The position numbers and the translations under genes are program-made. DNA of 41,142 nucleotides from positions 1 to 41,142 of the forward strand of contig JAGWZB010000005.1 in NCBI GenBank assembly GCA_018969045.1, read 5' to 3'. Shown here in pieces: positions 37,211-41,135 of this stretch. Numbering within the stretch: the stretch's first letter is position 1; each line of letters starts with the position of its first letter. The notes under the pieces are model-generated. The model did not search any database. It was not told the origin of the DNA and worked only from the letters and a program-made list of their open reading frames with translations. The DNA is from Planctomycetota bacterium. Lineage in GTDB: Bacteria; Planctomycetota; Planctomycetia; Pirellulales; Pirellulaceae.

Positions 37211-38296
37211 TTAAGGGGTTGCTTTGGTCAGATCCGATGGAACCACCCAGGTGCCGTCGTAGATTTTGAATGAGCCGTCAGCGATGATTTGTTCCTTGGG
37301 ATCGAGTCCCTGGCGTATCGATACATCATTTCCTAGGGTCGCACCGACGATTACTTCGCGGCGTTTAGCGATCCACTTTGATGTATCACTAGGATCGATT
37401 TGAGCGACGAAGCAAAAAGCACCTGTGGGATTGGTGCGTAGGGCTGAAGAAGGAATCAGCAGGGTAGGCTGCGAGTCTCCGTACTCGGCGACCACTTTGA
37501 CAGAGTCATTGATTTGAAGGGTTGCCGGAGGAGAGAGCACCTTGGCTCTAGCTGCAAGAGATCGAGTAACACGATCGGCTTGAGAGTCCACCGCGACGAC
37601 TTGGGCCTGGAGTTTCTTTCCGAGGTGCTCCAATGCCACCTGATCCCCCACTTGCAAATAGTCAGCCACATGTTGAGGCATCATGAAGTCGACGAAAACG
37701 AACTGATCGACTCCTTGAAGCATCGTTATTTGGGAACCTTCTGATAGATACTGTCCGGGTTGAATGTCAAAGACACCGGCTCGGGCTTGAAATGGAGCCA
37801 CAAGAATCTTTCGGCGAATGACGGCTTGGATTCTGGCGACTTCGGCTTGAGCCTGTGCCAGTTGAGCTTGGGTCTGGTCCAGATCCAATTCGCTCAATGC
37901 TTGGACCTCCATGGCTTTCTTGATTCGGACAAAAGTGGATTCGGCGATGCGTTGTGACGCTTTTGCGCTTGCGAGCATTGCTTCTTCGACACTGGTATCG
38001 AGTTCAACTAGAACTTGTCCTGGTTGGACCAAATCGCCGGACTGGAAATGGATCGCTTTGACAGTGCCGACGGTTTCGGTTCTCAGCTGGATCGACCGCG
38101 GGGCCACGACTGTGCCTATGACGGTCGTGCTAGATCGCAATTGAGTCGATTGAGGAGTTGAGAAAACCACGGGTGTCGGGTGGGCTTCTTGAACCGGTGC
38201 GGCCGATGAGAGCACACGGAATTTCAGCAGGTAGATGCCAAGGGCCAAGGCAGCAACGCCAAGAAGCACCGCGAGGGATCCTAGGAACTTTTTCAT
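37211..38296 (-). CDS. RND efflux periplasmic adaptor
   Basis: This is a membrane-fusion protein of 361 residues for the RND pump encoded next to it. An N-terminal anchor helix lies at about 4-24. The first half-lipoyl segment (TVGTVKAIHFQSGDLVQPGQVLVELD) leads to a short Ala/Gln-rich helical hairpin (about 108-160). The second half-lipoyl segment follows (VAPFQARAGVFDIQPGQYLSEGS), then beta-barrel and membrane-proximal domains containing LLIPSSALR. It is the first gene of the adaptor-pump-aroC run. The upstream 100 nt hold overlapping inverted repeats of TTTGGC/GCCAAA, possible operators. Confidence 0.92.
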   Translation of the reverse strand: MKKFLGSLAVLLGVAALALGIYLLKFRVLSSAAPVQEAHPTPVVFSTPQSTQLRSSTTVIGTVVAPRSIQLRTETVGTVKAIHFQSGDLVQPGQVLVELDTSVEEAMLASAKASQRIAESTFVRIKKAMEVQALSELDLDQTQAQLAQAQAEVARIQAVIRRKILVAPFQARAGVFDIQPGQYLSEGSQITMLQGVDQFVFVDFMMPQHVADYLQVGDQVALEHLGKKLQAQVVAVDSQADRVTRSLAARAKVLSPPATLQINDSVKVVAEYGDSQPTLLIPSSALRTNPTGAFCFVAQIDPSDTSKWIAKRREVIVGATLGNDVSIRQGLDPKEQIIADGSFKIYDGTWVVPSDLTKATP

Positions 38297-38581: not shown

Positions 38582-38611
38582 TTGTACTCACACAAGCTTG
38601 GCGTCTATAAT
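38582..38611 (+). promoter_or_regulatory. sigma70-type promoter of rho
   Basis: A perfect -10 TATAAT (38606-38611) lies 18 nt after TTGTAC (38582-38587). The start of transcription would be near 38618, giving an untranslated leader of about 180 nt before rho. Confidence 0.55.
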
Positions 38612-38625
38612 ACTTTGACGTGGAT

Positions 38626-38691
38626 CTGTCCACCCATTCTCCTCGAACATCCCACCAACAACCCGAACTCGATTTCGCTTGTCCAAACCCA
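38626..38691 (+). promoter_or_regulatory. C-rich, G-poor rut-like leader segment of rho
   Basis: By hand count, roughly 30 of 66 bases are C and about 6 are G, with runs such as CCCACC and AACCC. This C-over-G bubble of unstructured RNA is what Rho binds. A small CCCAC/GTGGG hairpin (38688-38702) follows. Confidence 0.5.
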
Positions 38692-38798
38692 CGTTTTGTG
38701 GGCTGACTGGAAGATTTAGCCGGCCTGTTTATTGTCAAATCCGCAGTCGTTGCTGGGTCGACACAGGCGGTTTTGAGTGATCGAGTTTGCCAAAACAA

Positions 38799-40178
38799 AT
38801 GACTGACCAAGACCGCGGTCGATCGCGACCCAATCGCAACATAAACGAGGTACTCTCGATTGCTGAGGAGATCCTTCGGGAGCGCAGTGGTATCGTCAAG
38901 CCACTGACGCTTCGGCCGGTGTTGGACTTTGCGACACTTCAGAGTATGTCTCAGGAAGAACTCGAGGGGCTCGCCAAGCTTGAAGGAATTCTTGGATGGG
39001 AATCCTTGACGCGACCGGAGTTGATTTACCAAGTCCTTAGGGCTCGGATGCAGTCATCTGGAATCATGATGGGAGAGGGAACGCTAGAGATACTTGCAGA
39101 CGGCTTTGGGTTTCTAAGGTCGGCTGCTCATCATTATGTTGCATGTCCCGACGATATTTATGTTTCGCCATCCCAAATACGTCGTTTTGGACTGACCAAT
39201 GGCATGACGATTTCGGGGAAGATTCGCCCTCCCAAGGAGAACGAACGGTATTTCGCGCTTTTGCGGGTCGAAGCGATCAATCATCGGAATCCCAACGAGG
39301 TGCGATCTCGCAAGTCGTTTGATTTGCTTACACCTCTGCATCCGAAACAGCGAATCATCTTGGAGACCCAAGCTTCGGAGATAGCGACCAGAGTTGTTGA
39401 TTTGGTCACCCCTCTGGGGTTTGGTCAACGCGGATTGATCGTGTCGCCACCTCGTGCCGGAAAAACGATTTTGATGCAGAAGATGGCAAGATCGGTACTA
39501 GCAAATTACCCCAATGCTTACGTCATGATGCTTCTCATCGACGAACGACCTGAGGAGGTAACAGACATGCAGCGCGAGGTACGAGGACCCAAGTGCGAAG
39601 TCATCAGTAGCACTTTTGACGAATCGGCCTCTAGGCACATTCAAGTTAGTCAGATGGTGCTTGAGAAAGCCAAGCGATTGGTCGAAGACGGGGTAGATGT
39701 GGTAGTTTTTTTAGACTCGATAACCCGATTAGCAAGAGCATGGAATGGTGAGTGCATACAATCGGGCAAGACCCTTACGGGGGGGTTAGATGCAAATGCC
39801 ATGCAAAAGCCCAAGGCCTTTTTTGGGGCGGCTCGGAAAGTTGAGGAAGGGGGCTCGTTGACGATAATCGCGACGGCTCTGGTGGGAACTGGGAGTAGAA
39901 TGGACGAAGTGATCTTTGAGGAATTCAAAGGAACAGGGAATATGGAGATTGTGCTCGATAGAGCACTTGTGGATCGAAGGATTTGGCCAGCGATTGATAT
40001 CTACCAAAGTGGTACACGTCGAGAAGAATCATTGCTCGATCCAGTGGAGCATCAAAAGATTGTTATCATGCGAAAAGCGCTAGCTGGATTAAGTTCGTCT
40101 GACGCCATGGAGCAGCTTGTCAATCGGCTGCAAAAGACTCGCAACAATGCGGAGTTTCTATTAGGGATCAAGGCCTAA
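38799..40178 (+). CDS. rho: Transcription termination factor Rho
   Basis: This hexameric RNA helicase ends transcription at rut sites. From the ATG at 38799 it has 459 residues; an upstream TTG at 38787 would add four. A short polar N-terminal extension precedes the Rho-N helices ([18 protein letters not shown]). The cold-shock RNA-binding domain ([13 protein letters not shown]...[16 protein letters not shown]) follows. The ATPase domain has Walker A PPRAGKT (217-223), [13 protein letters not shown], Walker [15 protein letters not shown] and the Q/R-loop region [35 protein letters not shown]. All key residues are present. The long C-rich leader suggests that it controls its own synthesis. A SpoU methyltransferase gene follows after 35 nt. 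Confidence 0.96.
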
Positions 40179-40213: not shown

Positions 40214-41020
40214 ATGAAAGCGGTTCAACGTATCCAGAGCCTAAACAATCCCGAGTTAAAGAGACTCAAGCGACTTCAAAGAGTTGAATCTGGCCGGAAA
40301 GAGTTTTTGATCGAAGGGACGCATTTATTAGAAGAGGCCGTAGCGACGGCTTGGCCCCTATGTAGTATTTATTACACAGACAGGTGGGCTCAAGAGAACC
40401 TCTCGTTGATTCACAGAACCTCACGAGACACCGACAAGTACGTGGTAGATCCTAGTTGGATTCGTCAAGCAGTAACAACGGATAATCCTGATGGTGTGGT
40501 AGGGATAGGAAGTTGGATGGGAGTAAACCAAACTGGACAATCCGATGAATTGTCTAGTGACATAAGCGATTGGAGTTTAGTTTTGGCTGGTGATGGAATC
40601 CAGGATCCAGGCAATGCGGGCGCCCTGCTACGAACCTTGGTTGGCTTAGGGGGGAATCGGTTGTATTTAAGTCCTGATTCGGTAAGTCCGGTACATCCGA
40701 AGTTCCTTCGTAGCACGGCAGGACAATGGTTTAGGAGACCACCTAGGGTGACCTCTATTAAAGATTTAGCCAAACATGCAATCCGAATTGGAGTGCAGGT
40801 GATCGTAGCGGACATGGGTGGAGAATCGATTGCTGATATGGACTTGAGAAAACCAACGGTGTTTGTATTGGGTTCGGAGGGGCGAGGGGTTAGTCCTGAG
40901 ATCAAGAAGGTGGCAGGAAGGGTTTGCGGCATACCCATGGCTGTTGGAGTCGAATCTTTCAACGTCGCGACAACAGGGGCGATTCTTTTATACGAAGCCC
41001 AACGTCAGCGATTTTCCTAG
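40214..41020 (+). CDS. SpoU/TrmH-family RNA 2'-O-methyltransferase
   Basis: This SPOUT enzyme transfers methyl from S-adenosylmethionine to a ribose 2'-OH of rRNA or tRNA. It has 268 residues. The N-terminal substrate-binding domain (about 1-105, including RKEFLIEGTHLLEEA) resembles RlmB/TsnR-type enzymes. The SPOUT knot carries the three SpoU motifs: IQDPGNAGALLRT (129-141), FVLGSEGRGVSPEI (217-230) and GVESFNVATTGAILLYE (245-261). The exact target base cannot be told from sequence. It lies 35 nt after rho and is probably co-transcribed. A palindromic repeat element starts 30 nt after its stop. Confidence 0.93.
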   Translation: MKAVQRIQSLNNPELKRLKRLQRVESGRKEFLIEGTHLLEEAVATAWPLCSIYYTDRWAQENLSLIHRTSRDTDKYVVDPSWIRQAVTTDNPDGVVGIGSWMGVNQTGQSDELSSDISDWSLVLAGDGIQDPGNAGALLRTLVGLGGNRLYLSPDSVSPVHPKFLRSTAGQWFRRPPRVTSIKDLAKHAIRIGVQVIVADMGGESIADMDLRKPTVFVLGSEGRGVSPEIKKVAGRVCGIPMAVGVESFNVATTGAILLYEAQRQRFS

Positions 41021-41042: not shown

Positions 41043-41135
41043 AAAAAAGCGGGGACAGACCCCGCGCTCCTGGCTTTAAAAATCGGGTTGGGAATCGGGG
41101 TCTGTCCCCGTTTCCGTACCTTTTTTTCCGACTGC
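41043..41135. repeat. Palindromic REP/MITE-like element
   Basis: Two identical 15-bp arms, CGGGGACAGACCCCG at 41050-41064 and its reverse complement at 41096-41110, are separated by 31 nt. Each arm is itself an imperfect palindrome. A-rich and T-rich tracts flank the pair (AAAAAA on the left, TTTTTTT on the right). This GGGGACAGACCCC type is familiar from REP elements linked to IS200-like REP-associated tyrosine transposases. No transposase gene is in the window. It may also terminate the rho-spoU transcript. Confidence 0.7.

Follow-up and report, generated by a model that had tools for sequence, protein, structure and literature searches.

A conserved 5' hairpin and unpaired YC-rich tract precede rho in a genus of Pirellulaceae and may serve Rho autoregulation

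The window, by which we mean the whole 41,142-nucleotide stretch analysed (contig JAGWZB010000005.1, assembly GCA_018969045.1, from a planctomycete of the family Pirellulaceae), belongs to a 5.0-Mb draft genome that is 93% complete. It carries on its forward strand a rho gene whose product, termed Rho1 here, has planctomycete entries as its nearest database records. ATG 38799 was assigned as the start of rho, a choice backed by a conserved N-terminus in close relatives, among which a TTG upstream of it (38787) lacked conservation. An RND efflux adaptor gene starts at 38296 on the opposite strand, so that the divergent genes are separated by about 500 nt. A gene for a TrmH/RlmB-like RNA 2'-O-methyltransferase (40214-41020, plus strand) follows rho after a 35-nt gap and may be co-transcribed with it; past this gene a hairpin sequence of the ggggacagacccc type occurs twice (41049-41111), in opposite orientation, possibly as a dispersed repeat. 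The features of the rho region are as follows:

38582-38587, plus strand: -35-like hexamer TTGTAC (3 of 6 positions matching) within the conserved CATTGTACTC, with an 18-nt spacer to the -10 hexamer
38606-38611, plus strand: -10 hexamer TATAAT, exact; TATAAT or TATACT precedes the element in the rho leaders of the genus
38617-38667, plus strand: whole element as predicted by covariance model R1, 63 bits
38618-38798, plus strand: putative untranslated rho leader, 181 nt, with its start taken 7 nt past the -10 hexamer and a conserved ATG after its end
38620-38633, plus strand: predicted 5'-terminal hairpin GUGGA-UCUG-UCCAC, with 5 pairs in the window and up to 7 in relatives
38634-38664, plus strand: YC-rich, G-poor tract, predicted to be unpaired; proposed Rho loading (rut) site on the grounds of composition, unpairedness and hexamers
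38688-38702, plus strand: second predicted hairpin, CCCAC-GUUUU-GUGGG, after the tract, from sequence and folds
38799-40178, plus strand: rho (Rho1), 459 aa, scoring 603 bits against TIGR00767 (cut-off 509)

For comparison, 27 genomes of the same genus were searched and yielded 24 Rho1 loci, the three genomes without a locus (G119, G128 and G136) being probably incomplete assemblies. A leader was taken as at most 250 nt ahead of a predicted gene, provided that the gene was preceded by 120 nt or more of non-coding DNA; 136 such leaders, drawn from the window and 20 stretches of genus genomes with rho itself dropped, served as the genus background, and 126 leaders from 20 stretches of other genomes of the family as the family background, the genes in both being plain output of an ORF caller. 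The perfect TATAAT of the original prediction was present exactly, and its leader of about 180 nt would measure 181 nt, given the conserved ATG and a transcript start that we inferred at about 7 nt after the -10 hexamer. The -10 words TATAAT and TATACT each occurred in 12 of the 24 genus rho leaders (4/136 and 7/136 in the background), CATTGTACTC or a close variant lay upstream of the -10 hexamer in close relatives of the window, and TGTACT was found in 10/24 genus rho leaders against a single background leader among 136. A simple promoter scan did not report the rho TATAAT because the match to the -35 is weak.

The original prediction also held that the first 70 nt of the leader are strongly C-rich and G-poor. 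Those 70 nt contain 18 A, 27 C, 9 G and 16 T, and the resulting (C-G)/70 of 0.257 is not extreme on its own; the bias stood out instead in the best windows within the 250 nt before the ATG, where the best 70-nt value, 0.329, was reached by 1.5% of the 136 background leaders, and the best 40-nt value, 0.450, exceeded them all (maximum 0.425). Across the genus, the 95th percentile of the background was surpassed by 21/24 rho leaders with 40-nt windows (Mann-Whitney p 4e-14, for genomes that are related and hence not independent samples) and by 13/24 with 70-nt windows; the mirror statistic, G-C over 70 nt, was unremarkable (0/24). Outside the genus, 115 genomes of the family were considered; nine were left out (eight in which Rho1 was matched partially or not at all, plus G098), and 106 loci were taken, of which 105 were used, L097 having no upstream DNA. 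With start codons chosen by rule, and with the same relatedness among genomes, 46/105 of these leaders exceeded the 95th percentile of their own background, compared with 3/105 for the mirror G>C control.

How far the bias reaches was gauged by measuring each rho leader against the percentiles of its own locus. The own-locus 95th percentile was reached by 22/24 genus leaders and 7/25 family loci (L090-L115), by one locus among 29 in other planctomycete families (the best-scoring 29 of 119 genomes searched), and by 2/19 planctomycete loci of a second collection and 7/51 loci of other phyla. In the nearest other family, which belongs to the same class, the five loci (L283-L287) stood at 0.88, 1.00, 0.76, 0.66 and 0.92. 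Taken with the own-locus counts, these values indicate that the C>G bias is mainly a trait of the family, strongest in the genus and blurred at its edge. The bias in related leaders, proposed as a check on the original prediction, was therefore confirmed for the genus (21/24), present in weaker form in the family and rare beyond it. A C-rich rho leader common to the whole phylum was ruled out by the 1/29 loci of other families, and the notion of a planctomycete counterpart to the E. coli leader proved too wide, even though the nearest other family had three of its five loci at or above 0.88. Two further observations concern these outer leaders: in 2/5 of the nearest-family loci the best 40-nt C-G was at least 0.45, and a number of rho leaders from other genera of the family (L142-L221) contained a C/U-rich tract with, by eye, a short hairpin between it and the start codon; the order of parts there may be unlike that in the genus.

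Composition was not peculiar to rho. The mean best 40-nt C-G of genus leaders was 0.199 for gyrB-like genes (best matches to TIGR01059, below its cut-off), 0.236 for the second rho paralog, 0.326 for nusA and 0.416 for rho, and values above 0.35 were found in 0/21, 1/7, 9/21 and 21/24 leaders, respectively. That nusA leaders are C-rich as well counts against a strict rho specificity of composition. As a separate observation, Rho perhaps controls nusA (loci L314-L338) too, a further gene of the termination machinery. The same C-G statistic applied to the 250 nt before E. coli rho gave an unremarkable 0.225, from which it follows that C>G composition is neither necessary nor sufficient, and provides no specific test of autoregulation. 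Sequence descriptors are also reported not to separate Rut from non-Rut sequences reliably (PMC12350095).

More specific information came from aligned leaders, which revealed a layout absent from the original prediction: the promoter is followed by a hairpin beginning at about +1, and the hairpin by an unpaired YC-rich tract. The motif pattern used to trace this layout was composed after the sequences had been seen, with the motif of the window placed by hand. In seven closely related loci, the window included, mean pairwise identity (21 pairs) was 0.73 for the promoter, 0.66 for the element and 0.35 for the rest of the leader, compared with 0.42 for upstream DNA and 0.29 for random sequences; L121, the farthest of the seven, shared an element identity of only 0.33 with the window. 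The near relatives L117 and L118 have leaders about 50 nt longer than that of L120 (94 nt), yet L120 keeps promoter, hairpin and tract intact, suggesting that the lower leader is dispensable in length. Only one of the 24 genus leaders (L134) lacked the layout at the expected spacing.

A covariance model of the element, R1, was built from eight leaders with the window among the training rows, and was used to search the 27 genus genomes, scoring at most 150 first-look candidates in each. Among the matches listed, nine had E < 4e-12 and all lay before rho; they comprised the eight training rows and one relative with the same element, and the next match listed had E = 0.005. R1 recovered none of 43 more distant rho leaders, because hairpin sequence and spacing differ there, and for the distant leaders of the genus the case for the element rests on where it lies, how it folds and its CTCTTC core. 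A strict pattern, CTCTTCNNNNYHYCCYYCC, gave 21 matches in the 27 genomes, of which 5 preceded rho and 16 lay elsewhere; its reversed form, run as a control, gave 17. The strict pattern fits just 5/24 genus rho leaders. The element as a common genomic motif was thus ruled out, the 16 matches outside rho being set against 17 in the control. A known RNA family was likewise excluded by Rfam scans, none of which gave a match at threshold: there were no matches in the window at gathering thresholds, two weak matches far below thresholds in the rho leader at E up to 10, and, in 12 genus loci, matches to miRNA models only, all within L131 834-947 and outside the L131 leader. Together these data make a conserved cis-acting element in the rho leaders of the genus a well-supported prediction from comparative sequence.

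The segment at the 5' end was predicted to fold more stably than its shuffles in 23 leaders (mean z -2.33; 17/23 below -1.5), whereas control segments of the same length gave mean z values of -0.09 downstream in the leader (69 segments) and 0.15 upstream (23 segments). The window hairpin by itself was not significant (z -1.82, p 0.07), and a stable fold of the leader as a whole was ruled out (z = -0.29). Eight leaders could be aligned with an ungapped stem; in these, 4/7 pairs had changed on both sides, and the covariation score was reached by 0/500 shuffles. The 7-4-7 stem register was chosen by folding each row, which biases its own permutation count (4/40320) in its favour; the z tests of the 5' segment and the tests of tract unpairedness are independent of that choice. 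Conservation at the level of DNA, with the first transcribed bases binding a transcription factor or setting initial transcription, would explain why the element adjoins a conserved promoter, but the compensatory changes keep the hairpin despite differing sequences and thereby point to RNA, and we regard this reading as very improbable.

A role in stability or ribosome loading was weighed against the same structures. According to this alternative, the 5' hairpin would block decay that depends on the 5' end and the pyrimidine tract would aid ribosome recruitment, with no termination involved, and the placement of the hairpin at about the first transcript bases in 23 leaders agrees with it. The C-richest 40 nt of genus rho leaders, however, begins 71-178 nt upstream of the start codon, which is far for ribosome recruitment, and the RNase J model found only a weak, partial match in the window genome (26 bits, below its cut-off), which speaks against the decay component; we judge this explanation improbable. 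Past the tract, where the window has its second predicted hairpin, putative hairpins are also seen in some relatives.

Within the tract, the aligned leaders share a core, ACUCUUCY, followed a few bases on by CCYCC or CCCACC. Where relatives commonly have CUCUUCY...CCYCC, the window has UCUCCUCG...CCCACC. In predicted folds, the unpaired fraction of the tract was 0.74 in the window, compared with 0.42 in shuffles, and averaged 0.78 over 23 leaders, compared with 0.50. A de novo search returned the hexamers CTCTTC, found in 17/24 genus rho leaders against 6/136 in the background (and in 0/21 nusA leaders of the genus), and CCCACC, found in 13/24 against 4/136; the window contains CCCACC and lacks an exact CTCTTC. 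Elsewhere in the family the top words are pyrimidine words (such as CTTTTC, 51/105 against 13/126; CCCTCC, 25/105 against 2/126).

The tract might alternatively be a short leader ORF through whose translation rho is controlled. A GTG at 38620 opens a frame of 28 codons, and GTG is present in five of the seven close loci, the window among them. A 1-nt indel within the tract nevertheless shifts the frame between relatives; L116 lacks a start at this place, L121 has another that opens 10 codons, and the frames end variously after 28, 47, 47 or 60 codons, or run into rho. A leader-peptide attenuator of the rhoL type was rejected on this evidence, the frame not being conserved in the seven close loci, and we attach only a minimal probability to control through leader-peptide translation.

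A further alternative is that the element is read by another factor, such as a cold-shock-domain protein, an antisense small RNA or a pyrimidine-binding protein, which would tune the translation or decay of rho. The CUCUUC core is conserved beyond the generic needs of a rut site, which might indicate a more specific reader, and the window genome does encode a cold-shock-domain protein. Near specificity for rho would be required of this factor, however, since sites other than those before rho did not exceed chance with either R1 or the strict CTCTTC pattern. A search of the 93%-complete window genome found no Hfq, and Rho itself is the obvious reader of YC. We consider this alternative unlikely.

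Whether Rho1 is equipped for that task was assessed from its residues. Rho1 retains the E. coli residues F62, F64, Y80, E108, R109 and Y110 in 24/24 genus members, positions that we take to form the YC-binding primary site of Rho. The window genome also encodes a second Rho:

L002 1217-2581 (G000:C53), minus strand: second Rho (Rho2), 454 aa, with a full motor domain

Rho2 scored 448 bits against TIGR00767, below the cut-off, and was above the cut-off of NF006886. In the window genome and six relatives (L136-L141), Rho2 carries F62Y, Y80F, E108P and Y110V/I in 7/7 cases and keeps F64 and R109 in 7/7, in an alignment that is gapped near positions 105-107. A Rho2-type match at 48-50% identity was present in 26/27 genus genomes and, among the matches listed, in many genomes of the family and phylum. 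As the residues are kept in Rho1 and changed in Rho2, the copy with an intact primary site is also the copy with a YC leader, a pattern that fits recognition by Rho1 of its own leader, short of proof.

The original prediction had proposed likely autogenous control of rho. Its sequence-based part, a rut-like composition, was upheld and is now joined by an unpaired tract and intact Rho1 residues, with Rho binding and termination being the steps that we infer. The window leader has what is looked for in a rut leader, namely C-rich, G-poor, unstructured untranslated RNA. In the proposed mechanism, rho mRNA would open with a dedicated cis-acting RNA element consisting of the 5'-terminal hairpin and the single-stranded YC-rich, G-poor tract. 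Excess Rho1 would bind the tract through its primary RNA-binding site, travel along the untranslated leader and halt RNA polymerase towards the leader's end or at the beginning of the coding region, such that Rho1 would set its own level by feedback; the hairpin probably shields the 5' end and holds the tract open. As the tract spans about +17 to +47 and the leader 181 nt, there is room for termination 100-200 nt downstream, and in L120 the expected termination zone would lie within the gene. Because the composition is exceptional, conserved and unpaired, and Rho1 has the residues for YC, we consider loading of Rho1 on the tract, with attenuation of its own transcription, to be the best explanation and a probable one.

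A bolder version of Rho1 autoregulation would make the element a single-copy sensor of Rho1 level, in which a rut site has evolved into a hairpin plus CUCUUCY...CCYCC, found only before rho as searched and unread by Rho2; we put this forward tentatively, and doubt it more than we favour it. If true, it would represent a specific Rho-recognition element in place of the usual degenerate loading site. Sites of Rho action are hard to predict from sequence, and a proposed tract and covarying hairpin found across a genus would amount to a set of natural variants bearing on what Rho needs. Should autoregulation by Rho1 hold, Rho feedback would be seen to operate through another leader design, in cells equipped with two Rho proteins.

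Autoregulation of rho by attenuation is itself already known, being stated for E. coli and other bacteria (PMC6582626), and the rho leader of the window is unmatched by any Rfam family at threshold; a search of the open-licence literature found no study of Rho-dependent control of rho in planctomycetes. The proposed arrangement resembles the E. coli rhoL-rho region, described there as a region upstream of rho where Rho attenuates its own transcription, but in E. coli an annotated rhoL of 33 codons precedes rho whereas the genus of the window has no conserved leader peptide, and the 250 nt before E. coli rho are not strongly C>G. The Salmonella rho leader, which according to the same source undergoes premature termination, would be alike in that respect and differs in that a small RNA, SraL, takes part. 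The conserved structured Pseudomonas RNA named for rho (Pseudomon-Rho, RF01720; a table entry of PMC2864571) offers a further likeness; its model matched 0/27 genus genomes, in a search in which 0/14 control genomes matched either, and it gave no match in the Rfam scans of the window, of the leader (E up to 10) or of the 12 genus loci. A last likeness is with B. subtilis, where candidate Rut sites, marked with E. coli Rho rather than B. subtilis Rho, occur in the 5' UTR of rho and the early part of its coding sequence; the two sections consulted of that report (PMC12350095) describe no 5' hairpin with a CUCUUC element.
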